Source: an uncultured Pelagibacteraceae bacterium
Lineage (GTDB): Bacteria; Pseudomonadota; Alphaproteobacteria; Pelagibacterales; Pelagibacteraceae
Direction: 5' to 3'
Assembly: GCA_902595125.1 (NCBI GenBank)
Contig: CACJOY010000004.1
Span: 1-64,000, forward strand
Length of the DNA stretch: 64,000 nt
Shown: positions 3,060 through 22,360 of the stretch, piece after piece
Layout: every line of letters starts with the position of its first letter
How positions within the stretch are numbered: position 1 is the first letter of the stretch
Notes under the pieces: model-generated
What the model was told of the DNA's origin: nothing
Databases searched by the model: none
The model's input: only the letters and a program-made list of their open reading frames with translations
Program-made: the position numbers and the translations under genes

Positions 3060-4541
3060 CTAACCCATGGTAAATGGATCAGTCATCGGTTTATCTGATG
3101 AATTATACCATGTAGTCTTTATTCTTGTGTATTCTTTTATAGACTCAATACCTGCTTCTTTTCCATAACCACTATCTTTAATACCTCCAAATGGTGCCAT
3201 TGGTGAAATTAATCTGTATGTGTTGATAAAAACTATACCTGCTCTTACAGCTTTAGAGACTCTTAAACCTCTCGCAAAATTAGAAGTATAAACTCCTGAG
3301 GAAAGTCCATATTTATTATCATTCATTTTTTCAATTACTTCCTTTTCATTTTCAAATTTCATAACTGATAATATTGGTCCAAATAACTCATTTTCTGCAA
3401 CTGGAAGATTGTGATTTTCACATTCAATTATTGTTGCTGGAAAATAAAAACCTTTATTTGAAATAGAAGATCTTTTTCCTCCACATCTAATTTTTCCACC
3501 TTGTTCAATTGTAGCTTTAATATTTTTTTCTATTGTTTCTAATTGTTTAAAACTATTTAATGGACCCATTTGTGTGTCTTTATCCATAGGACCACCCAAT
3601 TTTATTTTCTCAGCTTTAGCTATCAATTTTTTAAGAAATTCTTCATAAATTTTAGACTGAAGATAAAGTCTTGAACCTGCAATACAACTTTGGCCACTAG
3701 CGCCAAATATTCCTGCGGTAATTCCATTTAATGCATTTTCTTGGTCAGCATCATCAAATACTACAACTGGGCTTTTTCCTCCTAGTTCCAAACTTACTTG
3801 AGATAAATTTTCAGCAGAATTTTTAACAATATGTTTTGCAGTCTCTGGGCCACCAGTAAAAGCTATTCTTTCTATCAGATCATGAGTAGTAAGTGCCTTT
3901 CCACATGGTTCACCAAGTCCAGTAATTATATTAATTACTCCTTTTGGTACCCCAGCTTTTTCAATTAATTTTGCAAACTCTAATAAAGTTACTGGTGCAA
4001 GCTCTGATGCTTTTATTACAACAGTATTACCCATTGCTAGAGCTGGTGCAAGTTTAACCGCGGTTAATAGCATTTGAGAGTTCCAAGGGATAATTGCTGC
4101 GACAACACCTATAGGAATTCTTGTTGTTGTAACTTGCATGTCAGGTTTATCTATTGGAACAACAGTTCCTTCAACTTTATCGGCTAGACCAGCAAAGTAA
4201 TCATAATATTCTGCAATATAATTTGCTTGATTTTTTGTTTCTCTATAAAGTTTTCCAGTATCAATAGTTTCTATTTTTCCAAGATGCTCAGCATTTGCTC
4301 TTAGTTGGTCTGCAATTAATCTTAGATATTTTGCTCTGTCTCTTGGGTGAAGTTTTGACCAATTATTTTCAAAAGCTCTTTGAGCTGATTTAACAGCTTT
4401 GTTGACATCTTTTTCATTTGCCTCTGGAACAGTCGCCCAAATCTCATTATTTTCTGGATTTAAAGTTTCAATTTTTTTTCCAGAAGATGAATCTACCCAT
4501 TCACCATCAATATACATCTTAAAATTTTCAATTTTTGACAT
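3060..4541 (-). CDS. NAD(P)-dependent aldehyde dehydrogenase
   Basis: ALDH motifs FTGGPETAKHI, SLELGGKSP, GQSCIAGSR; C-terminus ...DPFTMG. Confidence 0.92.
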   Translation of the reverse strand: MSKIENFKMYIDGEWVDSSSGKKIETLNPENNEIWATVPEANEKDVNKAVKSAQRAFENNWSKLHPRDRAKYLRLIADQLRANAEHLGKIETIDTGKLYRETKNQANYIAEYYDYFAGLADKVEGTVVPIDKPDMQVTTTRIPIGVVAAIIPWNSQMLLTAVKLAPALAMGNTVVIKASELAPVTLLEFAKLIEKAGVPKGVINIITGLGEPCGKALTTHDLIERIAFTGGPETAKHIVKNSAENLSQVSLELGGKSPVVVFDDADQENALNGITAGIFGASGQSCIAGSRLYLQSKIYEEFLKKLIAKAEKIKLGGPMDKDTQMGPLNSFKQLETIEKNIKATIEQGGKIRCGGKRSSISNKGFYFPATIIECENHNLPVAENELFGPILSVMKFENEKEVIEKMNDNKYGLSSGVYTSNFARGLRVSKAVRAGIVFINTYRLISPMAPFGGIKDSGYGKEAGIESIKEYTRIKTTWYNSSDKPMTDPFTMG

Positions 4542-5324
4542 TTAATTATTAATAAATTTTTTAATATTCATATTAACATCATCTACATATTCTATACTAC
4601 AAAGATGTTTTCCATTTTTAATTTCGATATAAGTAGAATTAACAAGGTCTTTAACCAATTCTTTAGACATTCTAGGGGTCGAACCAATATCATCTGAACC
4701 AGTCATTACTAAAGTTTTTCTATCTATCTTTTTTATAGCCTCTATGTCATCATAATAATTGGCAAACAACTCATAGGCTTTAAGAAAATTTTTATGATCT
4801 TCTGGTTTTTTATTTAAAATATTCATAAATAAATCATAAGTTTTTGGATTATCTTGAAGGTATTTATCACTAAACCATCTTCTTAAAGCTTGTTTGGATA
4901 TTGATTTATTTAATTTAGCTTGATTGTATCTATCTAATACAAGAGATCTTTCATGTTCTGATCTTTTATAGGTAGTTCCAATTAATATAATTTTTTCAAC
5001 TTTATTTTGAAAATTAGATGAAAAATCTAAAGCAATTAAGGAGCCCAAAGAAAAACCCACAAGATTTATCTTTTCTATCTTTAAATAATTTAAAATTCCT
5101 AAAAGTTGATCTGAAAAATCTTTAAGACTTAATTTATCTTTATTATATGGAGTTTTTCCATGACCTAATAAATCGTAAGTTAAAACAGAAAACTCATTTA
5201 AATAATCTACTTGATTATCCCACATTTTATGGTCTAGACCTACTCCATGAATGAACACGATAGGGATTGACTCTTTTTTATTGTAAAAATAATAATTTTG
5301 ATTTGGATCAAAATTTTGAGACAT
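4542..5324 (-). CDS. Alpha/beta hydrolase (enol-lactonase/ring-product hydrolase type)
   Basis: FIHGVGLDHKMWDNQ oxyanion region, nucleophile elbow GFSLGS, C-terminal GKHL. Confidence 0.85.
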   Translation of the reverse strand: MSQNFDPNQNYYFYNKKESIPIVFIHGVGLDHKMWDNQVDYLNEFSVLTYDLLGHGKTPYNKDKLSLKDFSDQLLGILNYLKIEKINLVGFSLGSLIALDFSSNFQNKVEKIILIGTTYKRSEHERSLVLDRYNQAKLNKSISKQALRRWFSDKYLQDNPKTYDLFMNILNKKPEDHKNFLKAYELFANYYDDIEAIKKIDRKTLVMTGSDDIGSTPRMSKELVKDLVNSTYIEIKNGKHLCSIEYVDDVNMNIKKFINN

Positions 5325-5328
5325 GAGG

Positions 5329-5916
5329 TTATTTAGGATCTAATCCCATTTCTTTCATATCTTGATATCGATCTCCAGTTCTAGCATGAGCCCTACCACT
5401 TGATGCTCCACCAATTGCAATTATAATCTCATCATCAAAAGGTGCATCGTGAATAGTAAACTCATGAGTTAAATAATATGGTCTAAGACCTGAGTCTGTT
5501 TTATGCATCATGGGTATCGATATCTTAGATCCAGCGGGACCTCTAGTGTTTGTAAAACTTAAATAAGAAGTGCCTCCAACTGCATCTCTAAATTTATTTC
5601 CAAATCTTAAAGTATGGATAAAAGCTGAGGCATGCTCTATTTCACCATTTAAGCCTACAGTTCCTGCTTTACCATAAGCTAAAATTTTTTCTGGTGATCC
5701 GATTTCTTTTATTAATTCTGGAACTAAAATATCACCAAGTTTTGGGGCTAAATCTAAAATGATTGGCTTTAAGTCTTCTACAAATCCCTTACCTGCCCAG
5801 GGATTTTTGATCACAGCAGCTACAGATACTAATAAGACTGGTTCTTTAGCTAACTTTCCACCTTCAATGAGAGTTTTATCTACAAATTTTGTAAATTTTC
5901 TAAGCTCTAAATCCAT
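5329..5916 (-). CDS. DUF1185 'amino acid synthesis' family protein
   Basis: Family-like sequence (NPWAGKGFVEDLKPIILDLAPKLGD, AIGGASSGRAHARTGDR). Confidence 0.75.
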   Translation of the reverse strand: MDLELRKFTKFVDKTLIEGGKLAKEPVLLVSVAAVIKNPWAGKGFVEDLKPIILDLAPKLGDILVPELIKEIGSPEKILAYGKAGTVGLNGEIEHASAFIHTLRFGNKFRDAVGGTSYLSFTNTRGPAGSKISIPMMHKTDSGLRPYYLTHEFTIHDAPFDDEIIIAIGGASSGRAHARTGDRYQDMKEMGLDPK

Positions 5917-7082
5917 TAACTTGCTTTTTCTATATCAGAAGAATCTAAATTTATTTTTGGAATTACCTCATCATTAAATAATTTAATACTTCTCATACAA
6001 GCTTTATGATCTATACCAGGGAAGTTAGACCATACCTGAAGATTCTGTAAATTTAACTCCGACTTTAATTCATTGATTTTATTAACAACATATTCAGGGG
6101 TACCAAATAACAAATTTCTTTTATGAAGAAAATCATAGTTCAATAAATCTAATTTATGTTTTGTTTCAGGTAGCTCTTCCCCAGGATCCATATGATTTCC
6201 CAATCCTCTCCAATGACAAACCCATTTCATATAATTAATAATATGTTGACCAGCCATTTTTTCTGCCTCTTCCATGGTTTCTGCAACAAACATGTCTCTT
6301 ACTAAAGATACACCTTCCCCTAAAGGAACATCTCTATTTTCAGCAGTTGATTTTGCGTCTCTGTATATCTCAAATCTTTTTTTAAGAGCCTTTACAGTTG
6401 GTATCCACATAATTGTATTTAGACCATTTTGTGCAGCCCATTCAATTGATCGGGCACCATCAACAACTTGCCATATAGGAGGATGTGGTGATTGTTTAGG
6501 TTTTGGAACAATACTTATTTTTTTTATTTCATTTGTTTTCATATCTAAAAACTTTTTACTTGGAGGACTCATATCATGTTGCCAAATAAAGTCTGGTGAC
6601 GGATAAGTATAGAATTCCCCTTTGTGGCTAAAAAATTCTTCAGTCCAAGCTTTTTTCATAATTGTTAAAGACTCTTCAAATAATCTAAAGTTTTTAGCTT
6701 GGTCTTTAAGATCAGCTTCTTTATTCATATTAATTGCTTCTCTTCCATAGATTCCTCTTCCAATACCAACCTCGACTCTACCACCAGATAATTGATCAAG
6801 AAGCGCTATGTCTTCAGCTAGACGAATTGGGTTATGAAATGTAATCACATTGCAAGCTTGGCCAATTCTAATTTGTTTAGTTCTGGCTGCTGCATCAACA
6901 CCCATCATCAAAGGGTTTGTACAGGACTCCATTCCTTCATGATTAAAGTGGTGCTCAGTATACCAAATTGAATTCCATTTATTTTGATCACAGTATTCAG
7001 TAATTTCTTTAGTCTCATCTAATAATTTATTATAAGGTTTATGAGTCCAATTAGTTGTATTACAAAAGTATCCAAATTTCAT
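5916..7082 (-). CDS. LLM-class (luciferase-like) flavin-dependent monooxygenase
   Basis: Bacterial luciferase-type fold signatures (EHHFNHEG, QLSGGRVEVGIGRG); SD AGGAGG just upstream on minus strand. Confidence 0.88.
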   Translation of the reverse strand: MKFGYFCNTTNWTHKPYNKLLDETKEITEYCDQNKWNSIWYTEHHFNHEGMESCTNPLMMGVDAAARTKQIRIGQACNVITFHNPIRLAEDIALLDQLSGGRVEVGIGRGIYGREAINMNKEADLKDQAKNFRLFEESLTIMKKAWTEEFFSHKGEFYTYPSPDFIWQHDMSPPSKKFLDMKTNEIKKISIVPKPKQSPHPPIWQVVDGARSIEWAAQNGLNTIMWIPTVKALKKRFEIYRDAKSTAENRDVPLGEGVSLVRDMFVAETMEEAEKMAGQHIINYMKWVCHWRGLGNHMDPGEELPETKHKLDLLNYDFLHKRNLLFGTPEYVVNKINELKSELNLQNLQVWSNFPGIDHKACMRSIKLFNDEVIPKINLDSSDIEKAS

Positions 7083-7300
7083 TCTTCCTCCTTTAAACTT
7101 TCAATTTAAAAAAAGACGACCGATCCCACTTTCGTATTGGATTTAACGATGAGTTATGTATCGCTTAATAGATTAATATTATAAATCTTATCGCTGATAT
7201 TCAATAAATTTTTTCATGAGAGTTTTCTTAAAAATTTGAAAAAATATCATTTTTAAGGCTTCTTTATTAAAATTATTATTAATTAAGGAAGTTAAACTGT

Positions 7301-8251
7301 TCATCTATTAGGTGTATCTGAAACAATCATTTGGTCACGAACTTTTTCTCTTATGTAGATATATATTCCTGCTCCAATGATTAAAGCGACACCAAAAAAT
7401 GTCCTTAGGGTTGGAATATCATCAAATAAAAAATAACCGATTAAAATTGCCCATATGATTAAAGAATATTCATATAACGAAACAACCGGGGGTGAAGCAA
7501 TTGAATAGGCTGAAAATACACAGTAAAAAGAAAATGAAGCAACAAAACCCATTCCAACAATAAATGGCCAAGCATACCCTGGATTAGTAAACCATTCCCT
7601 AAAAATAAATTGAAGAGTTGGATTGGGATATATATTTAGTTGTCCTTTTCCTGTAAAAATAAAAAAAATTATACTTATAATGATAGCACCAATGTATAAA
7701 TGAGCCATTTGAGTATAAACACTATCTTTATCTGAAGTGTATTTTGTAATAGTCATAGAAATTGCATAAAATAATGCACATGCAACAGGTGCAAGTTTCG
7801 TATAATCAAAATCTTCAAAACTGGGATTTAAAACAATAATTACTCCAGTAAATCCCACAACAATCCCAAGCCATCTTCTTATTCCAACTTTTTCTTTAAG
7901 AAAGATTATAGCTAAAATGGATACAAAAAAAGGGCTCGAAAAGAATAAAGCATTTGCCATTGCAAGGGACATAAAGGTTAGAGAAACATAAAAAAAACTA
8001 AATCCGAAAAAAAAACATATCACTCTTATAATAGTTAAAAAAGGGTAGTGAGTTTTAAAAACAAGTTTTTGAGAGGTAATTTTTAAAAAAATGAATAATA
8101 ATATTGATGCTACTAATGTTCTTCCTAAATATAATTCATATAAAGCAGTGTCATTATAGATAAATTTTATTAAAGAATCTTGAATTGAAAAGGATGCCAT
8201 TCCAAGCAAGATAAAAATTATACCTTTAGTATTATTTTGTACTTGGTTCAT
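7301..8251 (-). CDS. EamA/DMT-family transporter
   Basis: Ten hydrophobic segments, duplicated EamA pattern. Confidence 0.85.
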   Translation of the reverse strand: MNQVQNNTKGIIFILLGMASFSIQDSLIKFIYNDTALYELYLGRTLVASILLFIFLKITSQKLVFKTHYPFLTIIRVICFFFGFSFFYVSLTFMSLAMANALFFSSPFFVSILAIIFLKEKVGIRRWLGIVVGFTGVIIVLNPSFEDFDYTKLAPVACALFYAISMTITKYTSDKDSVYTQMAHLYIGAIIISIIFFIFTGKGQLNIYPNPTLQFIFREWFTNPGYAWPFIVGMGFVASFSFYCVFSAYSIASPPVVSLYEYSLIIWAILIGYFLFDDIPTLRTFFGVALIIGAGIYIYIREKVRDQMIVSDTPNR

Positions 8252-9831
8252 GAATTTAAAATAAAATCTGAAGCTCTTTCTCCTATCATCAAAGTAGGGG
8301 CATTAAGATTACCACTTGTTATTTCTGGCATCACTGAAGCATCAGCAACTCTAATATTTTTTAAACCATGAATTCTAAGTTTTTCATCAACAACTGCCGT
8401 ATCATCAATCCCCATTTTTAAAGTGCATGAAGGATGATAGGCAGTTTCAGCTTTAGATCTAATATAATCAATAATTTCATTTTCACTTTCAGCATTATCT
8501 CCAGGTCCAATTTCCTTACCCGCATAAGGCTTCATTGAATTTTGACTTAATATTTTTCTTGCTACTTTTACACATTTTACAGTCTCATTTAAATCGTATT
8601 CATTTTCTAAATAATTAAATTGAATTTTTGGATATTCATAAGGATTGGAGCTATTGAGAGTTACATGGCCTCTGCTCTTTGGTTGATTTAAACTTGCATG
8701 AAGTTGATATCCATGTCTGTCAGGATCTACATTTCCATGATCAATTACAAAAGCAGGAAAAAAATGAAATTGTATATTTGGATATTCTTTATCTGCTGAA
8801 GATTTACAAAATCCACCTGCTTCTAAGAATGATGTTGCACACGGACCACTTTTATTTAAAAACCATTGAATACCTATCTTTAACATACTTAGTTTATTAA
8901 CGTATGAATATAAAGTATCGGGTGTTTTGCACTCTTGCTGAATATAAGTTTCTAAATGATCCTGAAGATTTTTTCCAACTCCCTTTAAATTATGAACTAC
9001 CTCAATACCTTTTTCTTTTAAATGTTCAGCTGGACCTACTCCAGAAACCATTAATAATTGTGGAGAATTTATTGAGCCACCACTAAGAATAACCTCTTTA
9101 TTCGCATAAATTTTTTTAACTTTATCTTTTATTTTAACTTCAATACCGATTGCTTTTTTCCCCTCAAAAATTATTTTTTCCACGAAAGACTGAGTAAAAA
9201 TTTGTAAGTTGTCTCTTTTTTTTACAGGATTTAAATAATATTTTGAGGCACTTGCTCTTTCACCTTTGTGAATTGTTACATCATACATGCCAAATCCCTC
9301 TTGATCTTTTCCATTCATATCATAATTTAACTTATATCCTGCTTCTTCTGCAGAATTTAAGAAAGCATTAAATAAAGGATTTTTGTTTTTAGACTGATTA
9401 ATTGGCAGTATACCATTTCCACCTCTAAATTCATTTTCCCCTTCTGACCAAGTTTCAATTTTTTTAAAGAAAGGTAAAACTTTTTCATATTTCCAATCCT
9501 TTAATCCAAATGAAGCCCATCTTTCATAATCATTTTTATTTCCTCTCACATAAACCATTCCGTTATGTGCCGAGCACCCCCCAATCATTTTTCCTCTCGG
9601 ACAAAATAATCTTCGGTTATTTAGGTATGGTTCAGGCTCTGAAAAATATTTATAGTTATATTTTGGATCATGCATTGTATAAAGAATAGCGAGTGGCATG
9701 TTAACTTTCCAAATGTCACTATTCTTACCTGCTTCAAAGATTGCAACACTATTTTGATTATTTTCTGATAACCTGTTAGCAAGAACACATCCTGCCGTAC
9801 CAGCTCCGATAATTAAGTAATCAAATTTCAA
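8248..9831 (-). CDS. GMC-family oxidoreductase (choline-dehydrogenase-like)
   Basis: FAD motif DYLIIGAGTAGCVLANRLSE; GMC signatures GRGKMIGGCSAHNGMVY-like and GGSINSPQLLMVSGVGP; YHPSCTLKMG. Confidence 0.9.
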   Translation of the reverse strand: MKFDYLIIGAGTAGCVLANRLSENNQNSVAIFEAGKNSDIWKVNMPLAILYTMHDPKYNYKYFSEPEPYLNNRRLFCPRGKMIGGCSAHNGMVYVRGNKNDYERWASFGLKDWKYEKVLPFFKKIETWSEGENEFRGGNGILPINQSKNKNPLFNAFLNSAEEAGYKLNYDMNGKDQEGFGMYDVTIHKGERASASKYYLNPVKKRDNLQIFTQSFVEKIIFEGKKAIGIEVKIKDKVKKIYANKEVILSGGSINSPQLLMVSGVGPAEHLKEKGIEVVHNLKGVGKNLQDHLETYIQQECKTPDTLYSYVNKLSMLKIGIQWFLNKSGPCATSFLEAGGFCKSSADKEYPNIQFHFFPAFVIDHGNVDPDRHGYQLHASLNQPKSRGHVTLNSSNPYEYPKIQFNYLENEYDLNETVKCVKVARKILSQNSMKPYAGKEIGPGDNAESENEIIDYIRSKAETAYHPSCTLKMGIDDTAVVDEKLRIHGLKNIRVADASVMPEITSGNLNAPTLMIGERASDFILNS

Positions 9832-9839
9832 AATGTTAC

Positions 9840-10667
9840 CTATTGAGGATGATCACCTTCAATAGCAATTCTATCCATTACTCTCTCATGACCCAAACCT
9901 CTACCTGGGAAAAAATCAGTTAATCCTTGATGTAATGTGCTTCTATTATCCCAAATTGCCACTGCGTTTTCTGTCCATTTAAATCTACAAGTAAAATCTA
10001 ATCGTTCTTGATGTCTAAAAATTTCATTTAAAATATCTTCACTTTCATTTTTTTCTAAATCTAAAATTTTTTTTGTATACATTGAATTCACATATAAAAT
10101 TTTTTTACCTGTTTCAGGGTGTGTTCTAACCATTGGATGTGCATTTGAATATTCATCTAAGTTTCCATTTCCTTCCATTGCTTTATAATCTTCAGTAAAA
10201 GCTGCTGCACCTAAAGAACTATGTATGGCTTTTTTATTATCTATTTTATCTTTAATTTTATCATCTAAAGTTTCATATGCGATTTCCATATTAGAAAACA
10301 TAGTATCTCCACCTACAGGTGGAATCTTTAATGATCTTAAAATGATTACTTTGGTAGGTTTAGGATTATAACTTACGTCAGTATGCCATGTTTCTCCCCA
10401 TTGTCTTTTTTCATCAGGTTCTTTGATAATTCTTAAAATCTCAGGATATTTATCTCTTCCCTTGACGTATATGTGTCTTTCTAAAGGGCCAAAACGTTTG
10501 GCAAGATTTATTTGTTCCTCCGAGCTGATATCCTGATCTCTGAAAAATAGGGCTTTATGTTCTAATAACAAATTATTAATTATATTCCAATTTTCTAAAG
10601 ATGAGTCTTTTAAATTAATTCCAGAGATTTCAGCTCCTAGAGCACCTGATAACAATTTAATATCCAT
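9840..10667 (-). CDS. TauD/TfdA-family Fe(II)/2-oxoglutarate dioxygenase
   Basis: HTDVSY (HxD) plus distal WDNRSTLHQG histidine; start taken at internal Met (MDIKLLSGALG) rather than the ORF-track Met. Confidence 0.88.
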   Translation of the reverse strand: MDIKLLSGALGAEISGINLKDSSLENWNIINNLLLEHKALFFRDQDISSEEQINLAKRFGPLERHIYVKGRDKYPEILRIIKEPDEKRQWGETWHTDVSYNPKPTKVIILRSLKIPPVGGDTMFSNMEIAYETLDDKIKDKIDNKKAIHSSLGAAAFTEDYKAMEGNGNLDEYSNAHPMVRTHPETGKKILYVNSMYTKKILDLEKNESEDILNEIFRHQERLDFTCRFKWTENAVAIWDNRSTLHQGLTDFFPGRGLGHERVMDRIAIEGDHPQ

Positions 10668-10718
10668 TAAGATCAACATATTACTAGATGTTTATTTTGT
10701 CAAAATGTATAAGAGATA

Positions 10719-11054
10719 ATGACTTTAACCCAAGCATATTTATTATTAGGAGTTGCTATTGCGGGAGAGATTATTGCAACCGGATCTCTAAAAGCCACAG
10801 AAGGATTTACTAAATGGGCACCTTCACTCATTTCTGTAGCAGCAATTATTGTTTGTATGTATACGATGTCTCACGTAATGAGAATATTACCTATAGGAAT
10901 AACCTATGCCACTTGGTCAGGGGTAGGAATTGTTGCATTATCTTTATGGGGTATTTATAAATATAAACAAATACCAAATATACCAACTATAGTAGGCTTA
11001 CTATTTATTATAGTTGGAGTTATCATTGTAAACACAATGAACAGTAATCAGTAA
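10719..11054 (+). CDS. Small multidrug resistance (SMR/EmrE-like) transporter
   Basis: Four TM segments, conserved membrane Glu in AIAGEIIATGSLK. Confidence 0.87.
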   Translation: MTLTQAYLLLGVAIAGEIIATGSLKATEGFTKWAPSLISVAAIIVCMYTMSHVMRILPIGITYATWSGVGIVALSLWGIYKYKQIPNIPTIVGLLFIIVGVIIVNTMNSNQ

Positions 11055-11103
11055 ATTATTTTTTTTATATCCTTAAGATTTTTATTATATTATAAATACT
11101 TTA

Positions 11104-11991
11104 ATGAGTAACAAAGTATTTATATCATGTGCAGTTACGGGTTCAGGTGATACAGCAAGTAAACATCCTGATTTACCTAAAACTCCTGAACAAATAGCCA
11201 AAGCCTCTATTGAAGCTGCAAAAGCTGGTGCAGCAATAGCCCACATACATGTAAGAGAAGAAGATGGTACTCCAAGTAGAAGATTAGATTTATACAAAGA
11301 GGTGGTAGATAGAATTCGATCAAGTGATACTGATGTAGTATTAAATTTAACTACAGGGATGGGTGGAGATTTAGATATTGGACAAGGAAGTAATCCTTTA
11401 GAATTTGGACCATTGACCGATATGGCAAATGTTATGGAAAGAATAGCAAATGTAGAACAGTTCCTTCCAGAAATTTGCACTTTAGATGCAGGAACATTAA
11501 ATTTTGGAGATAGCTCTGTGATAACAGTTAATACTCCTAATGATTTAAGAAAAGCAGCAAAAAAATTGAAAGAATTAAAAGTTAAACCTGAAATAGAAGC
11601 TTTTGATTTAGGTAACATGTGGTTTGGATCTCAACTATATAAAGAGGGATTGTTAAGTGATCCCCCACTGTTTCAAATGTGCTTAGGTATTCCTTGGGGA
11701 GCGCCTGCCACAACTCTTGCGATGCAAGCGATGAAAGAAATACTTCCAACAGAAGCGGTATGGTCTGGCTTTGCCATCTCAAAAAATGAAATGCCTTTTG
11801 TAGCCCAAACAGTTCTAATGGGAGGTAATCCAAGGGTTGGATTAGAGGATAATTTATATTTATCAAAAGGAAAATTAGCAACAAATGCTCAATTAGTTGA
11901 AAAAGCCAAAAGAATTATAGAAGAATTAGGTTATTCAACTATGACGCCTTCTGAAACTAGAGAAAAGTTAAAACTTGTTAAACACAAGTAA
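11104..11991 (+). CDS. Beta-keto acid cleavage enzyme (BKACE, DUF849); candidate 3-dehydrocarnitine cleavage enzyme
   Basis: N-terminal CAVTGSGDTASKHPDLPKTPEQIA and AHIHVREEDGTPSRR typical of BKACE; adjacent to carnitine dehydrogenase. Confidence 0.85.
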   Translation: MSNKVFISCAVTGSGDTASKHPDLPKTPEQIAKASIEAAKAGAAIAHIHVREEDGTPSRRLDLYKEVVDRIRSSDTDVVLNLTTGMGGDLDIGQGSNPLEFGPLTDMANVMERIANVEQFLPEICTLDAGTLNFGDSSVITVNTPNDLRKAAKKLKELKVKPEIEAFDLGNMWFGSQLYKEGLLSDPPLFQMCLGIPWGAPATTLAMQAMKEILPTEAVWSGFAISKNEMPFVAQTVLMGGNPRVGLEDNLYLSKGKLATNAQLVEKAKRIIEELGYSTMTPSETREKLKLVKHK

Positions 11992-12932
11992 TGTCTACCA
12001 TTAAAAAAGTTGCAGTCATAGGCACTGGAGTTATAGGAGCAGGATGGATTATTCGATGTTTAGCACACAACAAGATCGTTTATGCCTTTGATAAAGATTT
12101 AACATTAAAAAAAAAATTACTAGCCGAGATTAAAAGAACTTGGCCTTATGTTAAAAAGCTTTTTAATAAAAAGAAACTTAATTTTAAAAATTTTAAATAT
12201 TTTACCTCTATTCAAGAAACTTTGAAGGATGCTGATTTTATTCAAGAATGTGCAACTGAAAATTATGTTTTAAAAAATAAGTTGATGAAAATCATAGGAA
12301 ATTATGCAAAATCAAATGCAATTATTTCCTCTAGTTCTTCTGGATTGTTGCCAACAAGAATTTATTCACAATGTAAAAAACCTGAACGAACAATGATTGG
12401 ACACCCTTTTAACCCCGTTTATTTATTACCAGCCGTTGAAATTGTACCTGGAAAAAAAACAGCCAATAAATATCTAAACAAAGCTAACAAGTTCTATAAG
12501 TCAATTTCCATGAACCCAATAATAGTTAAACATGAGTTACCAGGTTATTTATCAGATAGACTTCAAGAGGCTTTATGGAGAGAAGGACTTCATATAATTA
12601 ATGAAGGACATGCAACTACAGAAGATTTAGATAGAGCTATAGAAGATGGGCCAGGTTTGAGGTGGTCGTTAATGGGTACATTTTTAACTTTTCATTTAGC
12701 TGGAGGAAAATCCGGAATGAAACATATGTTGGAACAATTTGGACCAGCCTTAAAACTACCATGGACTAAATTAAAAGCTCCAAAATTATCTAATAAATTG
12801 ATTAATAGATTGGTACTAGGAACTAAAAAACAATCTAAAGGGCGATCTGTTTCAAAAATATCAAATATTAGAGATGAGTATTTAGTTAAACTTCAACATC
12901 TAAGAAAAAAATACGAAAAAAAATTAAGATAA
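11991..12932 (+). CDS. L-carnitine 3-dehydrogenase-like 3-hydroxyacyl-CoA-dehydrogenase-family protein
   Basis: Rossmann GTGVIGAGW, GHPFNPVYLLPAVE, and DRLQEALWREGLHIINEGHATTEDLDRAIEDGPGLRWSLMGTF, which resembles characterised carnitine dehydrogenases. Confidence 0.82.
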   Translation: MSTIKKVAVIGTGVIGAGWIIRCLAHNKIVYAFDKDLTLKKKLLAEIKRTWPYVKKLFNKKKLNFKNFKYFTSIQETLKDADFIQECATENYVLKNKLMKIIGNYAKSNAIISSSSSGLLPTRIYSQCKKPERTMIGHPFNPVYLLPAVEIVPGKKTANKYLNKANKFYKSISMNPIIVKHELPGYLSDRLQEALWREGLHIINEGHATTEDLDRAIEDGPGLRWSLMGTFLTFHLAGGKSGMKHMLEQFGPALKLPWTKLKAPKLSNKLINRLVLGTKKQSKGRSVSKISNIRDEYLVKLQHLRKKYEKKLR

Positions 12933-12933
12933 A

Positions 12934-13722
12934 TTAGTCATTTCTTTCTGTGTGTCCGTCTACGGATATAACTTGACCAGATACTCTTAATGAGTCATCT
13001 GAAATTAAAAAGGAACACATTTTACCTATATCATCTTCTAATATCCATTGCTTCATTGAACTCATTGAAATAAAATCCTTTTCAATTTTTTTTGTAGAAA
13101 CTTTTTTAAACTTTGCCTTATCTCGTATAACTCTCTTCATTCTGTCACCTTTAATAGTTCCAGGACAAACAGCATTTACTCTAATATTATATCTACCAAG
13201 TTCCATAGCTAAAGTTTTTGTAATACCAATAATTGCCCATTTACTGGCTGCGTAAGGAGAACGTAGTGGGAATCCAAGTATTCCTGCAGTTGATGAAATA
13301 TTTATTATTGAGCCGTTTTTAGATTTTTTAATTAAAGGGATAGCTCTTTTAGTAAAATAAAAGTGACTATTTATATCTACTTGTAAAGTATTTTCCCAAT
13401 CTTTAGATTTAATTTTTTCTAAAGATCCTGTAGGTCCTGCAACTCCCACATTATTAATTAAAGCATCAATTTTTTTTGTTTTTTTCTTAACTTTATCAAA
13501 AAATTTGGAAACTTGATTTTCATTAGAAGCATCACAAATATAAGTAAATAATTTTTTATTTATTAATGGATGCTTATTGAGTTTATTAAGAGATTTAATA
13601 TCTAAATCACAAATATAGACGAAAGCTCCTCTAGATAAACATATTTTTGCTATAGCCAGCCCTATACCCGATGCCCCAGCAGATATAATGATTTTCTTAT
13701 TCTTAAGAGTTTGATCTGACAT
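12934..13722 (-). CDS. Short-chain dehydrogenase/reductase
   Basis: GASGIG, NNVG, SYxxxK variant (SPYAASK), VCPGTI. Confidence 0.88.
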   Translation of the reverse strand: MSDQTLKNKKIIISAGASGIGLAIAKICLSRGAFVYICDLDIKSLNKLNKHPLINKKLFTYICDASNENQVSKFFDKVKKKTKKIDALINNVGVAGPTGSLEKIKSKDWENTLQVDINSHFYFTKRAIPLIKKSKNGSIINISSTAGILGFPLRSPYAASKWAIIGITKTLAMELGRYNIRVNAVCPGTIKGDRMKRVIRDKAKFKKVSTKKIEKDFISMSSMKQWILEDDIGKMCSFLISDDSLRVSGQVISVDGHTERND

Positions 13723-13820
13723 TTGAATACTTTAATAATGAATAAGCGTAAAAAACAAGAATATTTTTTCTTATCTTATTTATCATTGAAAATTGCTTAA
13801 AAGTAAATAATCATTGTAAA

Positions 13821-14945
13821 ATGCCCAGTATTTCAAAAATAGAAAAAGATGAAAATAATCTTAATATTAAATGGAGTGACGGAGAGGTAAGTAGTTTCAA
13901 TTACCTATGGCTAAGAGATAATTGTCCCACAGCACATGACAAAGACTCTAATCATCGAATGTTTAACATTCTTGATGTTTCAACAAATCTCAATGCGGAA
14001 AACTTTAAGGTAAATAATGAAGGTAAACTAGTTATTAAATGGAGCGAAGGAAATCATGTAAGTTACTATGATACGGACTGGCTTAGAAAAAATTGTTATA
14101 CTCTAAAAAATAAAAAAAAATATATTTCTCCTTATCAATTATGGGACAACTCATTAGAGAAAGAAATAGATTCTATTTGTATTGAACACAATGAAATATT
14201 GAATACAGAAAAGGGACTTATAAAATGGCTAGAATTATTACACCATAAAGGAATTGCTATAGTAAAGAATTCACCAACAGAAAAAAAATCGGCCTTTAAA
14301 GTTCTGAATAGAATAAGTCATATTAGACAAACTTTTTTTGATACTCCATTTGAAGTTATTAATATTCCAAAACCAAATAATTCAGCTTATACAGCTCATG
14401 AGCTTAAGAATCATATGGACCTTCCATGGTTTGAAAATCCTCCTGGTTACCAATTTCTTCATTGTTTAATCAATTCAGCAAAGGGTGGTGACTCGTCAGC
14501 AGTTGATGCATTTAAAGTTGCAGATTTTTTAAGGGATAACGAAAAAGAAATTTTTGAAACTTTAGTTACAATTCCACTTAAATTTCGTGACAAAGATTAT
14601 ACTCAAGAGGCTCATAGAAGTTTTTATGCTCCAGCACTTAGTCTCACTAAAGACGGGGATTTTAATGATATAAGATTTAGTGTTGCAACTATGGATGCTT
14701 TAGACTGTCACCCAAGTGAAATGGATAGAGTATACAAAGCTCATCACAAATTGGGAAATTTGTTACATGACGATAAATTTCAAATAAAGTTTAGACTAGA
14801 ACCAGGTGATATTTTTTCTTTCAACAATAGGAGAGTATTACATGGAAGAACAGCCTTTGATCCTAACTCTGGCCACAGACATCTTCAGGGATATTATATG
14901 GATAGGGATGAAATAATTGGAAGATTAAATTATTTAAAAAAATAA
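13821..14945 (+). CDS. Gamma-butyrobetaine dioxygenase-like 2OG dioxygenase (DUF971 N-terminal + TauD)
   Basis: N-terminal WSDGEVSSFNYLWLRDNCPTAHD; C-terminal TauD with HMDLPW and NNRRVLHGRTAFD. Confidence 0.83.
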   Translation: MPSISKIEKDENNLNIKWSDGEVSSFNYLWLRDNCPTAHDKDSNHRMFNILDVSTNLNAENFKVNNEGKLVIKWSEGNHVSYYDTDWLRKNCYTLKNKKKYISPYQLWDNSLEKEIDSICIEHNEILNTEKGLIKWLELLHHKGIAIVKNSPTEKKSAFKVLNRISHIRQTFFDTPFEVINIPKPNNSAYTAHELKNHMDLPWFENPPGYQFLHCLINSAKGGDSSAVDAFKVADFLRDNEKEIFETLVTIPLKFRDKDYTQEAHRSFYAPALSLTKDGDFNDIRFSVATMDALDCHPSEMDRVYKAHHKLGNLLHDDKFQIKFRLEPGDIFSFNNRRVLHGRTAFDPNSGHRHLQGYYMDRDEIIGRLNYLKK

Positions 14946-15886: not shown

Positions 15887-16630
15887 ATGAATTCAACAAA
15901 AATAGAACCTAAATATAGCCCTTCCTTGAACCCAAAAGTTGGATTAATTGCACTAGCTACTGATTTTAGAATTGAAAAAGATTTTATAAGTGTAATTAAA
16001 GATCAAAGTATAGATTTCTTTGTAAATCGAATTCATTGCTATTTCCCTTTAACAAATGAGAATCTAATTAAAATGTCTGATAGTATTACTGAAATTTCAG
16101 ATGATATCTTGCCAAATGAAAAGTTAGATTGTGTAGTTTATGGATGTACATCAGGCACAATAGCATCAGGATACAGTTCAATAAAAAAAAAAATACATTT
16201 AGCTAAACCAGATGCAAAAGTTACTACTCCAAGTACTGCCGCAGTAAATGCTTTACGAAAGTTAGGATTAAATAAGTTATCAATTTTTACTCCATATTCA
16301 AAAGCACTTAATGATGAAGTTGTAGAATATTTTAAAAAAGAAAATTTTGAAATCACTACTAACTCTTATTTTGATATTTCAAATGATCTAGATATTGGAA
16401 AAATAGATGAAAATTACTTATATGAAACATTATGTGATATGGATTTAGGTAATGCTGAAGCTTTATTTATTTCATGCACTGCACTACCCGCATTATCAAT
16501 AATCGATAGACTTGAAAAAAAATTGAATAAAGTTGTCCTATCCAGCAATCAAGTTTTGATATGGGATACTTTACAAACAATAGGTAAAAAAGATCGAATA
16601 GAAGGCTTCGGAAAACTTTTTAAAAATTAG
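15887..16630 (+). CDS. Asp/Glu racemase superfamily protein, EutA (ectoine utilization)-like
   Basis: VVYGCTSGTIASG and ISCTALPALSIID catalytic Cys pair, VTTPSTAAVNALRKLG. Confidence 0.72.
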   Translation: MNSTKIEPKYSPSLNPKVGLIALATDFRIEKDFISVIKDQSIDFFVNRIHCYFPLTNENLIKMSDSITEISDDILPNEKLDCVVYGCTSGTIASGYSSIKKKIHLAKPDAKVTTPSTAAVNALRKLGLNKLSIFTPYSKALNDEVVEYFKKENFEITTNSYFDISNDLDIGKIDENYLYETLCDMDLGNAEALFISCTALPALSIIDRLEKKLNKVVLSSNQVLIWDTLQTIGKKDRIEGFGKLFKN

Positions 16631-16634
16631 ATCG

Positions 16635-17804
16635 ATGAATTTTTCAAAAGAAGAATACAAAAGTAGATTAAAAAAAGTTCAAAAAATGATGCAAGATAAG
16701 AATATTGAACTTTTAATATCACATGACACAAATAACATTAACTACCTTACTGGTTATGATGCATGGTCTTTTTATTATGCACAATGTGCAATTGTCCACG
16801 TAAATTCAGAGGAACCATTATGTTTTGTCAGAGCACAAGATGCTGGAGGAGCATACATAACCACATATCTTAAAAAAGAAAATATTATCGTATATGACGA
16901 AAACTATATACACAAATGGCCAAGCCATCCTTATGATTATTTGGTTGAGATTATAAAAAAAAAAAAATGGGACAAATTATGTATTGGAGTTGAAATGGAT
17001 GCTCATTATTTTACAGCATTTTGTCATGAAAAAATTAAAAACGGATTACCAAATTCAAAGATAAAAGATTGTGATCGATTAGTTAATTGGGCACGATTAG
17101 TAAAATCTGAAAAAGAAATTAGCTACATGAAAGCTGCAGCTAAAATTTCTGAAAACGGTATGAAAACTGCCATGCAAGTAATTAATCCTGGAGTAAGACA
17201 GTGTGATGCCGTTGGAGAAATTCAAAAAACATTATTCTATGGAACAGAGGAATATGGCGGTGAATATGCAAGTATAACAACTTTATTACCAACAGGAAAA
17301 GGAACTTCAGCGTCTCACTTAACAGCAACACAAGATAAATTTGTTGAGGGGGAGGCAACTATAATTGAGTTATCAGGCGTTTATAAAAGATATCACTCAC
17401 CAATGGCCAGAACTGTATTACTTGGCAAACGAGATCAAGTAAAAATTGACACAATGAAAAAAACGATAGAGGCATTAAATGCTGGGATTGATGCAACTAA
17501 ACCCGGGAATACTGCTGATGAAGTTGCTCAAGCTTTTTGGAAAATTTTAGATAAATATGGAATAGAAAAAAAATCTAGAACTGGATATTCGATTGGTATT
17601 GGATACCCACCTGATTGGGGTGAACACACATTAAATATTTATAAGGGTGATATGACTGTATTAGAGCCTAATGTTTGCTTTCATATGATAGCCGTTATGC
17701 AATTTGGGGACTGGGGAGTAGAAGCATCTGAAGCAGTAAGAGTGACAGAAAAAGGTTCTGAGCTTTTTTGCAATTTTCCTAAAGAACTTCATATCAAAAG
17801 CTAG
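16635..17804 (+). CDS. M24-family peptidase-like, DoeA/EutD (ectoine hydrolase)-like
   Basis: NINYLTGYDAWSFYYAQCAIV, LVNWARLVKSEKEI, GYSIGIGYPPDWGEHTLNI; matches remembered DoeA-family sequence pattern. Confidence 0.72.
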   Translation: MNFSKEEYKSRLKKVQKMMQDKNIELLISHDTNNINYLTGYDAWSFYYAQCAIVHVNSEEPLCFVRAQDAGGAYITTYLKKENIIVYDENYIHKWPSHPYDYLVEIIKKKKWDKLCIGVEMDAHYFTAFCHEKIKNGLPNSKIKDCDRLVNWARLVKSEKEISYMKAAAKISENGMKTAMQVINPGVRQCDAVGEIQKTLFYGTEEYGGEYASITTLLPTGKGTSASHLTATQDKFVEGEATIIELSGVYKRYHSPMARTVLLGKRDQVKIDTMKKTIEALNAGIDATKPGNTADEVAQAFWKILDKYGIEKKSRTGYSIGIGYPPDWGEHTLNIYKGDMTVLEPNVCFHMIAVMQFGDWGVEASEAVRVTEKGSELFCNFPKELHIKS

Positions 17805-17860
17805 TTATTAGGGGTTGATATTTATACTTACAAATGTTTTAAATTCATAGATTAATTTGA

Positions 17861-18940
17861 ATGAATAAAGAATTCGTAAAATTTGATAAAGTAGATAAAA
17901 GCTATGATGGAAAAGTCTTAGTAGTTAAAGATCTTCAACTGGATATTGAAGAAGGAGAATTCGTTACAATGTTAGGACCATCTGGTTCAGGTAAAACTAC
18001 TTGTTTAATGATGTTAGCAGGCTTTGAAACACCAACTCATGGTGAAATTTATTTAGACGGAAAAGCAATTTCAAGTATTCCGCCACATAAAAGAGGAATA
18101 GGAATGGTATTTCAAAATTATGCATTGTTTCCACATATGACTGTTTATGAAAACTTAGCTTTTCCTTTAAGAGTTAGAAAAATTCCTAAAGATGAAGCAG
18201 ATAAAAAAATTGATAAAGCATTATCAATGGTATCATTGCAAGGATTTGCTCAAAGAATGCCAGGTCAATTATCTGGGGGACAACAACAAAGGGTTGCAGT
18301 AGCAAGATCTTTAGTTTTTGACCCACAACTTGTTTTGATGGATGAACCCCTTGGTGCTTTAGATAAAAATTTAAGAGAAAGTATGCAGTATGAGATTAAA
18401 CATATTCACGAAAGTATAGGAGTAACAGTTGTTTATGTAACTCACGATCAAAGTGAAGCGCTTACAATGTCTAACCGTATTGCTGTGTTCAATGATGGTA
18501 AAGTTCAACAACTATCTAGTCCAGATGAGCTTTATGAAAAGCCAGTTAATTCTTTTGTTGCTGAATTTATAGGAGAAAACAATACTTTTGCGGGAGAAGT
18601 TTTAGATATTTCAGAAGGGAAATGTAAAGTTAAGTTAGCTAATGCAGAAATTATGGCAAATCCAATTTCAGTTAAAGGAAAAGGTGAAAAAACAACTGTT
18701 TCTCTGAGACCCGAAAGAGCATTGATTAATCCTAGTGACAAAATGGATAACATTCACAAAGGAAAAATTGAGGAAGTTATTTATCATGGTGATCACACAA
18801 GAGTTAGAATTAATTTATTAGGAAACTCTGATTTTATTCTTAAAGTACCTAATAGCTCGTCTAATCTTGATATAAAATTAGGAAACGAAATTAAGATTGG
18901 CTGGAATAGTCAAGATGCTAGAGCATTAGACCCAAAATAA
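17861..18940 (+). CDS. Polyamine-type (PotA-like) ABC transporter ATP-binding protein
   Basis: Walker A GPSGSGKTT, signature LSGGQQQRVAVAR, Walker B LVLMDEP, C-terminal TOBE region. Confidence 0.92.
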   Translation: MNKEFVKFDKVDKSYDGKVLVVKDLQLDIEEGEFVTMLGPSGSGKTTCLMMLAGFETPTHGEIYLDGKAISSIPPHKRGIGMVFQNYALFPHMTVYENLAFPLRVRKIPKDEADKKIDKALSMVSLQGFAQRMPGQLSGGQQQRVAVARSLVFDPQLVLMDEPLGALDKNLRESMQYEIKHIHESIGVTVVYVTHDQSEALTMSNRIAVFNDGKVQQLSSPDELYEKPVNSFVAEFIGENNTFAGEVLDISEGKCKVKLANAEIMANPISVKGKGEKTTVSLRPERALINPSDKMDNIHKGKIEEVIYHGDHTRVRINLLGNSDFILKVPNSSSNLDIKLGNEIKIGWNSQDARALDPK

Positions 18941-19041
18941 ACACCATTTACATCCTGTATAACTCACAAAAAGGGCTGTTGACTCTCATTATCGATCTTG
19001 CTGTAATTGGTTTTTATAAAAAACGTTTAAACGGAGGAAAA

Positions 19042-20163
19042 ATGAAAACAATTAGTAAATTATTACTAGCCATTTCTTTTGCTATCTCTGTAACTACTTC
19101 AGCATTTGCAGTAACTGCAGTGTCTTGGGGTGGAGCTTACACAGAGTCTCAAAAGTTAGGTTATGGTGATCCTACTGGTAAAGCCCTTGGTATAACAATC
19201 AATTGGGTTGATTATTCAGGTGGATTATCTGAGATCAAAGCGCAAAAAGAAGCTGGCAAAATTACGTGGGATATAATCGACGTATTTGCAATGGACACTA
19301 TCACAGGATGTGACGAAGGATTATTTGTTGAGTTTGATTTCGACAAAGACTTTCCACCCGCACCAGATGGAACTCCAGCAAGTAAAGATTTCTTTACTGC
19401 TATGCCAAGTAAATGTGCTGTAGGAAATATTCTATATTCTTGGAACTATGCTTATAACTCAGAAAATGTTAAAGGCACTCCAAAGACTATCAAAGATTTC
19501 TTTAACACAAAAAAATTTCCTGGCAAAAGAGCTATCTACAATAGCGCTCTAACAAATTTAGAGATCGCTTTAGCTGCAGATGGTATCAAACCTGGAAAAG
19601 GTGGAGCAAAAATCTACAAAGCTTTAAACACAGAAAAAGGTGTTGATAGAGCTATGAATAAGATCAAAGAATTATGTACAGATCCAAAAGGTGGATGTGT
19701 ATTTTGGTCTGCAGGTGCTCAACCACCAGAATTATTAATGAGCGGTGAAGTTGTTATGGCAACTGGTTGGAATGGTAGATTCTTTAACGCTATCGTTGGA
19801 GAAGGTGCACCACTAGTTCAAGTATGGGATGGACAAGGTCTTGACTACGAATACTTCGTACAAGTTAAGGGTGGACCAAACGATGCTAATGGTATGGCTA
19901 AAAAAGCTTTAGCTATGATGACTAGCACAGAAATGTTAGCAGGAAGTGCGAAATATATCGCATACGCTCCTTGGAGAAAATCTTCTATAGCTATTATGGA
20001 AGCAGGAGAGCCGTGGTATAAAGATGGTAAGACTAATATGGTACCACAAATGCCAACTGCACCAGCTAATACTAAAAATTACTTCTTAGTAGATCCACTT
20101 TACTGGGCTGACAACGGTACAGAGCTTGGTGAAAAATGGGAAGCTATGAAAGCTGGTCTATAA
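19042..20163 (+). CDS. PotD-like periplasmic solute-binding protein
   Basis: Signal peptide MKTISKLLLAISFAISVTTSAFA; GGAGG SD 9 nt upstream supports ATG at 19042 rather than ORF-track start 18979. Confidence 0.9.
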   Translation: MKTISKLLLAISFAISVTTSAFAVTAVSWGGAYTESQKLGYGDPTGKALGITINWVDYSGGLSEIKAQKEAGKITWDIIDVFAMDTITGCDEGLFVEFDFDKDFPPAPDGTPASKDFFTAMPSKCAVGNILYSWNYAYNSENVKGTPKTIKDFFNTKKFPGKRAIYNSALTNLEIALAADGIKPGKGGAKIYKALNTEKGVDRAMNKIKELCTDPKGGCVFWSAGAQPPELLMSGEVVMATGWNGRFFNAIVGEGAPLVQVWDGQGLDYEYFVQVKGGPNDANGMAKKALAMMTSTEMLAGSAKYIAYAPWRKSSIAIMEAGEPWYKDGKTNMVPQMPTAPANTKNYFLVDPLYWADNGTELGEKWEAMKAGL

Positions 20164-20200
20164 TTTAAGTTTTATTAAACTTAATTATATATTATAATTT

Positions 20201-20234
20201 AAGGGCGGTTATCTGATAACCGCCCTTTTTATTT
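20201..20234 (+). terminator. Intrinsic terminator/attenuator between binding-protein and permease genes
   Basis: Perfect 13-bp inverted repeat AAGGGCGGTTATC-T-GATAACCGCCCTT followed by TTTTTATTT. Confidence 0.92.
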
Positions 20235-21488
20235 ATGAGCTCAGAAACAAAACAAATTTTAACAACAGATGGAATTCCTTTAGAGGTAAGTCTTAAAAAA
20301 GCTGAAAGAAGAAATAAGATTAAAGCATTCTTGCTAGTAGCTCCTTTACTATTATTTATAATTATCACTTATGTTCTTCCTATTGGAGACATGCTCATGA
20401 GAAGTGTGGATGATAAAATGGTTACTCAAATGCTTCCCAAAACTTTTAAAGCTATGGAAAAATGGGATGGGAAAGAGTTACCAGAGGAAGAAGTTTTTGC
20501 TGCTTTTCATTCAGATTTCATAAAGCTAGTAGAGGAAAAACGTGAGGGAAAATTATCTACACAACTAAATTATACCAAAAACGGATTTAAAAGTATTATT
20601 AAAAAATTAAGAAGAAAATCAAAATCCTTTGAAGATGGAAATTATAAAGAACAAATAATGGCAGTCCACAAAAGATGGGCTAATGTTGAATATTGGCAAG
20701 CGATTAAAAGAAGAGCTCCAGCATATACTGGCCAGAAATATCTAAAGGGTATGGATATGTTCAAAAATGAAAGTGGAGAAATAGTTAGTGTTTCAGAAGA
20801 TAGAAGGATTCATAGAGTTCTATGGTTGAGAACTTTAGAAATTGCATTCTTTGTAACAGTGTTTTGTTTTTTAATGGCATATCCAATAGCTCATTTGTTG
20901 GCAACTTTACCTATGAAGTATAGCAACCTACTAATGATCTGTGTTCTTCTTCCATTTTGGACATCATTACTTGTAAGAACAGCTAGTTGGATGATTTTGT
21001 TGCAACAACAGGGTTTGGTTAATGATTTCTTTGTTGGGATAGGATTAGTAGCTGATGATAATAGGCCTGAAATGATGTTTAATAAGACAGGTAGCTATGT
21101 TGCAATGACGCAAATCCTATTACCTTTTATGGTTTTGCCGCTTTATAGTGTGATGAAAACAATTTCTCCAAGCTTGATGAGAGCTGGAAAGTCTTTGGGC
21201 GGAACCCCTTTTGTGGCTTTTTGGAAAGTTTATTTTCCATTAACTATCCCAGGTATTGGAGCTGGTTGTTTATTAGTTTTTATACTAGCTATAGGTTATT
21301 ATATAACTCCAGCATTAGTTGGAGGAGCCTCTGGTACATTGATTAGTAACCAAATTGCTTTTCATATGAAGAGTACGCTTGATTGGAGTTTTGCATCAGC
21401 AATGGGCTTAATGTTATTGACTGGAGTTTTAGCAATTTACTGGGTGTATAATAAATTAGTTGGAATAGATAACATTAAATTAGGATAA
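20235..21488 (+). CDS. PotB-like ABC transporter permease
   Basis: Hydrophobic segments plus permease EAA-like loop RAGKSLGGTPFVAFWKVYFPLTIPG. Confidence 0.88.
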   Translation: MSSETKQILTTDGIPLEVSLKKAERRNKIKAFLLVAPLLLFIIITYVLPIGDMLMRSVDDKMVTQMLPKTFKAMEKWDGKELPEEEVFAAFHSDFIKLVEEKREGKLSTQLNYTKNGFKSIIKKLRRKSKSFEDGNYKEQIMAVHKRWANVEYWQAIKRRAPAYTGQKYLKGMDMFKNESGEIVSVSEDRRIHRVLWLRTLEIAFFVTVFCFLMAYPIAHLLATLPMKYSNLLMICVLLPFWTSLLVRTASWMILLQQQGLVNDFFVGIGLVADDNRPEMMFNKTGSYVAMTQILLPFMVLPLYSVMKTISPSLMRAGKSLGGTPFVAFWKVYFPLTIPGIGAGCLLVFILAIGYYITPALVGGASGTLISNQIAFHMKSTLDWSFASAMGLMLLTGVLAIYWVYNKLVGIDNIKLG

Positions 21489-21492
21489 AAAG

Positions 21493-22347
21493 ATGGCTTT
21501 ACCAAAATATACAGAACCACATTATAGAATTTGGCATTATATTTATTTGACTATTTGTGCGGCAGTTTTCTTTTTTCTTATAGCTCCATTATTCGTAATT
21601 TTTCCATTATCTTTTAACGCTGAAGAATTTTTAGTTTTTTCTGATGGAATGAAAAGTCTAGATCCTGATGCGTTTTCATTAAGATGGTATAAGGACATGA
21701 TTTATGGAACCAAAAATCCTTGGGGTTTAGCTACAAAAAATAGTTTTATTATTGCTATCTTTGCAACGATTGGCTCAGTCATTTTGGGAACAGTTGCTGC
21801 GTTAGGTTTAAGCAGCAGACATATGCCTTACAAAGGTTTAATCATGGCAGTTTTAATATCCCCAATGATTGTACCATTAATTATTTCTGGAGTAGCAATA
21901 TTTTTTTTTATGGCTAAAGCTGGTTTGGCAGCAACTCATTTAGGAATTATTCTTGCACATATTATTTTAGGCACACCATTTGTAGTTATAACAGTTACTG
22001 CTACTTTATCAGGGTTTGATCATAGTGTTACGAGAGCTGCAGCAAGTCTTGGTAGTAATCCAGTTAATACTTTTATGAAAATTACTCTACCACTAATTTT
22101 ACCAGGTGTTATCTCGGGTGGACTATTTGCTTTTGTAACTTCATTTGATGAAGTCGTAGTAGTCTTATTCTTAGCTGGATTAGAAAACACAACTATACCA
22201 ATTCAAATGTGGACAGGTTTAAGAGAACAGTTAAGTCCAACTATTCTTGCTGTTGCAACTTGTCTAATCATTTTATCAACATTAATATTAGTTACTGCTG
22301 AACTCTTAAGAAGAAGGTCTGAGAGACTCAGAGGTATAAATCAATAG
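21493..22347 (+). CDS. PotC-like ABC transporter permease
   Basis: TM pattern plus EAA-like loop RAAASLGSNPVNTFMKITLPLILPG. Confidence 0.9.
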   Translation: MALPKYTEPHYRIWHYIYLTICAAVFFFLIAPLFVIFPLSFNAEEFLVFSDGMKSLDPDAFSLRWYKDMIYGTKNPWGLATKNSFIIAIFATIGSVILGTVAALGLSSRHMPYKGLIMAVLISPMIVPLIISGVAIFFFMAKAGLAATHLGIILAHIILGTPFVVITVTATLSGFDHSVTRAAASLGSNPVNTFMKITLPLILPGVISGGLFAFVTSFDEVVVVLFLAGLENTTIPIQMWTGLREQLSPTILAVATCLIILSTLILVTAELLRRRSERLRGINQ

Positions 22348-22360
22348 TAAATATCATTTT

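Follow-up and report, generated by a model that had tools for sequence, protein, structure and literature searches.

Known systems related to the operon

The closest described relative of the locus reported here is the cluster (tgn) of Acinetobacter for trigonelline, a compound of plants and plankton, in which a bacterial luciferase-like flavin monooxygenase (LLM), a TgnC-type aldehyde dehydrogenase (ALDH) and an alpha/beta hydrolase are encoded together with TgnF, a DUF1185 protein. In that pathway, as Perchat and colleagues reportedly described in 2018, cleavage of the trigonelline ring gives an N-methylformamide and an aldehyde, and oxidation and hydrolysis follow. The Rut pyrimidine pathway of E. 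coli (RutA-F) also combines an LLM oxygenase with an alpha/beta hydrolase for the opening of an N-heterocycle and adds a flavin reductase. A DUF1185 protein (HcdD) is moreover found within the catabolic operon for 7-hydroxycoumarin, the Hcd cluster, although the oxygenase and the substrate are different there; efforts to demonstrate that HcdD is stimulatory were unsuccessful (PMC7913881). We analyzed a four-gene operon of comparable content, together with its leader, in bases 1-64000 of contig C4 (hereafter the window) from a 1.18-Mb SAR11 genome that is 98% complete.

This operon is unlike tgn in that its LLM belongs to another clade and in that it has no flavin reductase, succinate-semialdehyde dehydrogenase or GntR gene. 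It is unlike Rut in that an ALDH and a DUF1185 protein take the place of an isochorismatase or RidA partner. On balance, we favor the reading that the operon encodes a tgn-type opening of an N-methylated pyridinium carboxylate, most likely homarine, and that a leader RNA controls its translation.

Gene content and kinship with tgn-type modules

The four consecutive open reading frames (ORFs at 3060-7082) all lie on the minus strand in the order LLM, DUF1185, hydrolase and ALDH (Table 1). The LLM and DUF1185 genes overlap by 1 nucleotide (nt), while the gaps that follow are 4 nt between DUF1185 and hydrolase and 0 between hydrolase and ALDH. This place and order had already been given in a preliminary description of the DNA, and both the ORFs and the Pfam families agree with it. 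Glu43-His44-His45 is conserved in the LLM, the triad of the hydrolase is intact (Ser92-Asp212-His240), and the catalytic residues of the ALDH are Cys286, Glu252 and Asn154.

Table 1. Genes and leader features of the four-gene operon in the window.
Feature	Position	Strand	Length	Details
LLM (bacterial luciferase-like) flavin monooxygenase, first gene	5916..7082	-	388 aa	Bac_luciferase 153 bits (Pfam)
DUF1185 / PF06684 protein, TgnF-like	5329..5916	-	195 aa	AA_synth 215 bits (Pfam)
Alpha/beta hydrolase, TgnD-like	4542..5324	-	260 aa	Abhydrolase_1 88 bits (Pfam)
Aldehyde dehydrogenase, TgnC-type clade	3060..4541	-	493 aa	Aldedh 544 bits (Pfam)
Ribosome-binding site of the LLM gene	7087..7094	-		AAAGGAGG, strong
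Predicted hairpin joining the leader 3' strand to the ribosome-binding site	7083..7119	-		Predicted pairing
Conserved leader element (model R1), candidate cis-regulatory RNA	7108..7171	-	64 nt	Two near-invariant blocks flank a variable hairpin

A recurrent block of the form GntR-DUF1185-hydrolase-flavin reductase-LLM-ALDH was found in Sinorhizobium meliloti pSymA, Klebsiella aerogenes, Leisingera, Marivivens, Thioclava and Acinetobacter baumannii (plasmid and other records). It has the gene content expected of tgn, and an A. baumannii record adds an NCS1 permease and a succinate-semialdehyde dehydrogenase to it. The A. baumannii cluster served as our tgn reference, as a stand-in for that of A. 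baylyi. The window ALDH shares 50% identity with its counterpart in the A. baumannii block, versus 34% with the succinate-semialdehyde dehydrogenase encoded there. In the tree it lies inside a clade of 17 rows (100/99) with the tgn-type ALDHs, outside which are placed E. coli BetB, FeaB, PuuC and AldA as well as the succinate-semialdehyde dehydrogenases. The DUF1185 protein shares 53-59% identity with its counterparts from tgn-type clusters, among them those of Acinetobacter (54%), Sinorhizobium and Rhizobium. The preliminary description took it for an uncharacterized step; instead, it recurs as part of the tgn-type block, and TgnF itself is homologous to DUF1185 proteins (PMC7913881). Judged by sequence comparison, the operon is a tgn-type (trigonelline-type) module.

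Several results on the genes weigh against the reading favored above. The hydrolase is distant: it shares just 23-32% identity with tgn-type hydrolases, with 28% for the one from Acinetobacter, and the LLM shares 25-28% with tgn-type LLMs. In the LLM tree the window protein stands outside the TgnB-type clade; the two form separate clades, each with 100/100, and the tgn-type one sits on a stem of 1.5 changes per column. Furthermore, no PF01613 flavin reductase was found in any of the 44 genomes carrying the operon (see below). The copy number of SoxD, a rough proxy for N-methylglutamate dehydrogenase of which the window's genome has two sets, was tried and rejected as a mark of homarine use, for it does not track the operon (p = 0.47).

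Because the ALDH and the DUF1185 protein are near their tgn-type copies and the LLM stands apart, the downstream chemistry looks, at the level of sequence, common to tgn, and the oxygenase looks specific to another ring. The comparison with tgn in the preliminary description thus holds for the module, with its TgnC-type ALDH, DUF1185 protein of the TgnF kind, intact hydrolase triad and luciferase-type oxygenase whose non-SAR11 relatives can carry a PF01613 reductase in the operon, but not for the LLM, which is not of the TgnB type. Phylogeny of the LLM against TgnB had been named there as a way to refute the proposal; the protein did fall outside the TgnB-type clade, which in part counts against the proposal, while the class of the pathway is supported.

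Conservation of the operon in SAR11

Of 197 genomes sampled from the same family, 44, or about a fifth, have the LLM. The order LLM-DUF1185-hydrolase-ALDH is exact in 69 of the 81 LLM-bearing SAR11 loci, which argues that the gene order is not due to chance; nine of the other 12 end at a contig edge and three have an extra thiamine pyrophosphate (TPP) enzyme between LLM and DUF1185. The flanks of the block differ among SAR11 genomes and consist of EutA/DoeA with a Pot-type ABC transporter, carnitine-type genes with EamA, livK, or panB-guaA. Since the surroundings vary while the four genes stay together, these genes travel as a unit. If the favored reading is true, this tgn-form operon in 44 of 197 SAR11-family genomes would name a route from the compound pool into the cell.

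The neighbors also bear on another explanation, in which the substrate is not an N-heteroaromatic and the operon, tied to the adjoining carnitine/betaine genes, would for instance catalyze an oxidation of the Baeyer-Villiger type before hydrolyzing a lactone and oxidizing an aldehyde. The structure model of the LLM appears similar to luciferases and type II Baeyer-Villiger oxygenases, an enol-lactonase is the top structural match predicted for the hydrolase, and carnitine-type genes adjoin the operon in the window and in some relatives. However, the fold matches of both proteins in the structure search are generic, the ALDH clade and the DUF1185 protein tie the operon to tgn-type blocks, and the neighbors change from one SAR11 genome to another with only the four genes constant, so that we hold this explanation to be unlikely.

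Outside SAR11, most of the nearest relatives come from alphaproteobacterial metagenome-assembled genomes, with LLM identities of 55-71%, and there is also one contig labelled Actinomycetota. In this last one (L083, SI037_bin109), EutA-like and M24 peptidase-like genes lie upstream of the operon relative in the same direction, and its label may reflect a binning error or a transfer. The hydrolase diverges far faster than its neighbors: across the 69 SAR11 loci, its median identity to the window is 60% versus 91-92% for the LLM and the DUF1185 protein and 83% for the ALDH. The inserted TPP enzyme resembles sulfoacetaldehyde acetyltransferase or acetolactate synthase and was seen between LLM and DUF1185 in L065:10883-13213, L066, L069, L183, L184 and L186; in L065 a methyltransferase accompanies it.

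A conserved leader element upstream of the operon

Upstream of the LLM gene we found the leader element of Table 1, whose blocks, about GCGATACATAACTCRTC and TACGAAAGTGGGATCGGTCGTC, are separated by a spacer of variable length and followed by the ribosome-binding site. Of the SAR11 loci, 80 have a readable leader, and every one of these has the element. Mean pairwise identity reaches 0.89 and 0.92 in the blocks, compared with 0.40 immediately upstream and 0.63 in the stretch from block to ribosome-binding site. The covariance model matches in 44 of the 197 genomes, which are exactly the 44 with the LLM, and in none of the other 153. Two further copies, found in genomes G074 and G082, are not followed by an LLM gene and appear to be remnants. 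Tests of non-SAR11 and of tgn-type loci revealed no copy, and a search of Rfam 15 gave no match above gathering, only weak chance matches. The leader, previously uncatalogued, is the most novel part of the locus and also the most directly testable one.

In the predicted fold, the 5' block pairs with the 3' block (P1) and P2 closes the variable hairpin; 85% of the P1/P2 cells pair, compared with 30-47% in slid controls. The predicted hairpin over the ribosome-binding site takes at least four of the seven nt of the P1 3' strand in all 36 leaders with a clear site, and it shows A-U/U-A exchanges at positions -1 and -4. By the same kind of prediction, the ribosome-binding site is paired in 86% of leaders versus 33% after shuffling of the upstream part. 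On these modelled pairings the layout looks switch-like. The aptamer-like fold and the hairpin over the ribosome-binding site would exclude each other and thereby exert translational control of the operon, as an on-switch in which formation of P1 would leave the ribosome-binding site free. Translational riboswitches with a sequestered ribosome-binding site are similar in having a conserved leader, mutually exclusive pairings and a site beside the start codon, but the SAR11 leader matches no Rfam family.

The folding results do not all favor control by RNA. Covariation in P1 is weak (a score of 0.145 versus 0.120 in controls), RNAalifold does not predict P1, and the folding z-scores of the whole leader are mixed, from -2.3 to +0.9. 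Because of these mixed scores and of an alternative hairpin available to the 5' block, the modelled details of P1 may be wrong. The leader could instead be a DNA operator or a protein-binding RNA rather than a ligand-binding riboswitch, a serious alternative that we rate below even chances. It would account for sequence conservation far exceeding covariation, for a P1 that lacks a thermodynamic prediction and for the alternative pairings of the 5' block. It sits less well with the fact that both blocks keep their sequence though the length of the spacer varies widely, and that the 3' block overlaps the conserved ribosome-site hairpin with its compensatory exchanges; a single operon as the only target and the few regulators of SAR11 also favor a local RNA.

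As for control by RNA, it is possible, though doubtful, that the leader represents a new SAR11 riboswitch class which responds to homarine or a closely related N-methylated pyridinium betaine and turns on translation of its own ring-opening operon; that a ligand drives the switch is something we infer. A response of the leader to a compound would mark that compound as the likely substrate of the operon, and such control, if true, would show how a regulator-poor genome controls an optional pathway.

Orphan or degenerate copies of the leader with no LLM gene directly downstream occur at L187:1788-1870 (minus strand), L188:897-955 (plus strand) and L107:8582-8637, possibly as scars of loss or movement of the operon.

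Proposed chemistry and substrate

We infer the action on an N-heteroaromatic, the opening of its ring and the substrate. In the proposed route, an unlinked reductase would feed reduced flavin mononucleotide (FMN) to the LLM, which would oxygenate the ring and break it next to the nitrogen, with an N-formyl group and an aldehyde as the result. Oxidation of the aldehyde would then fall to the TgnC-type ALDH and removal of the formyl group to the alpha/beta hydrolase, while the DUF1185 protein would have the same supporting role as TgnF, which is itself still poorly understood. Since the LLM is of a different branch, it probably acts on a trigonelline-related compound such as homarine. For homarine, the bond cleavage of the trigonelline route, here between C5 and C6, followed by oxidation and deformylation would yield a five-carbon N-methyl-dehydroglutamate skeleton and formate. 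Chemical reasoning by analogy thus suggests a likeness to homarine catabolism in both the likely substrate and the N-methylglutamate end product. A hom operon for homarine catabolism, attributed to Ferrer-Gonzalez and colleagues in 2026, is said to occur also in SAR11; if it indeed does, the four-gene operon itself may already be known.

Chemistry and ecology, and these only, make homarine (N-methylpicolinate) our tentative choice of substrate, at somewhat less than even odds. Homarine reaches up to 67 nM in particles, whereas trigonelline is at picomolar levels where measured, and TgnAB has been argued to be unable to take homarine for steric reasons (PMC8269262), with which the separate branch of the LLM fits. 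The predicted N-methyl-dehydroglutamate product would also agree with the role of N-methylglutamate dehydrogenase in homarine catabolism, as far as PMC13390433 relays it from a 2026 report.

Trigonelline itself is not indicated, since the LLM is not in the TgnB-type clade. That the operon is nevertheless the trigonelline pathway proper, with a TgnB that diverged fast or was replaced, is quite improbable. The TgnC- and TgnF-type partners are present, and one ALDH of the succinate-semialdehyde dehydrogenase clade, with an identity of 39%, is encoded elsewhere in the window's genome and could take the role of TgnE. Against this stand the separate LLM clade with its long stem, the low trigonelline levels mentioned above and the fact that, in the SAR11 loci read, the operon itself includes no TgnE-type gene.

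Flavin reductase

The preliminary description saw no flavin reductase nearby, and for PF01613 this is true of the window's whole genome. PF01613 occurs in 26 genomes of the family, which do not overlap with the 44 carriers and belong only to genera without the operon (g5, g7, g9 and g12). Outside SAR11, relatives of the operon do contain a PF01613 gene, directly upstream of the LLM in L050 and directly downstream of the ALDH in L086, and SAR11 has therefore probably lost the ancestral reductase partner. As candidate suppliers of reduced FMN, the window's genome encodes two Flavodoxin_2 proteins, at C11:5353 and C1:400216. The flavin adenine dinucleotide enzyme adjoining L050 was considered as the counterpart of the one adjoining the Leisingera cluster; on comparison the two are unrelated.

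Neighboring genes and related clusters

Beside the operon, window positions 7301-14945 hold genes of carnitine/betaine catabolism, including EamA, a choline-dehydrogenase-like GMC protein, a TauD-type oxygenase, an SMR transporter, BKACE, a carnitine dehydrogenase-like protein, an SDR and a gamma-butyrobetaine-dioxygenase-like protein. Ectoine-type genes follow at 15887-24583, namely EutA-like, DoeA-like, a Pot-type ABC transporter and a 3HCDH/ECH fusion. We rejected the EutA/DoeA genes that adjoin the operon in many SAR11 genomes as parts of the pathway, because nearly every genome of the genus has EutA, whether it carries the LLM or not. A LivK-type binding protein, found downstream of the operon in 47 of 67 readable loci, was likewise rejected as a dedicated transporter component; a 93% identical protein is encoded elsewhere in the window's genome.

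Some SAR11 genomes have a second LLM-hydrolase pair, often within a carnitine cluster (L183:6214-8025, L184:11275-13086, L185:8913-10727 and L186:10380-12191). This second LLM is just 24-29% identical to tgn-type LLMs and was discarded as a true TgnB. In addition, a hybrid cluster on a Parasedimentitalea marina plasmid (L075) combines DUF1185, hydrolase, RidA, an LLM and an ALDH 56% identical to that of the window with carnitinyl-CoA dehydratase, carnitine-dehydrogenase-like and BKACE genes.

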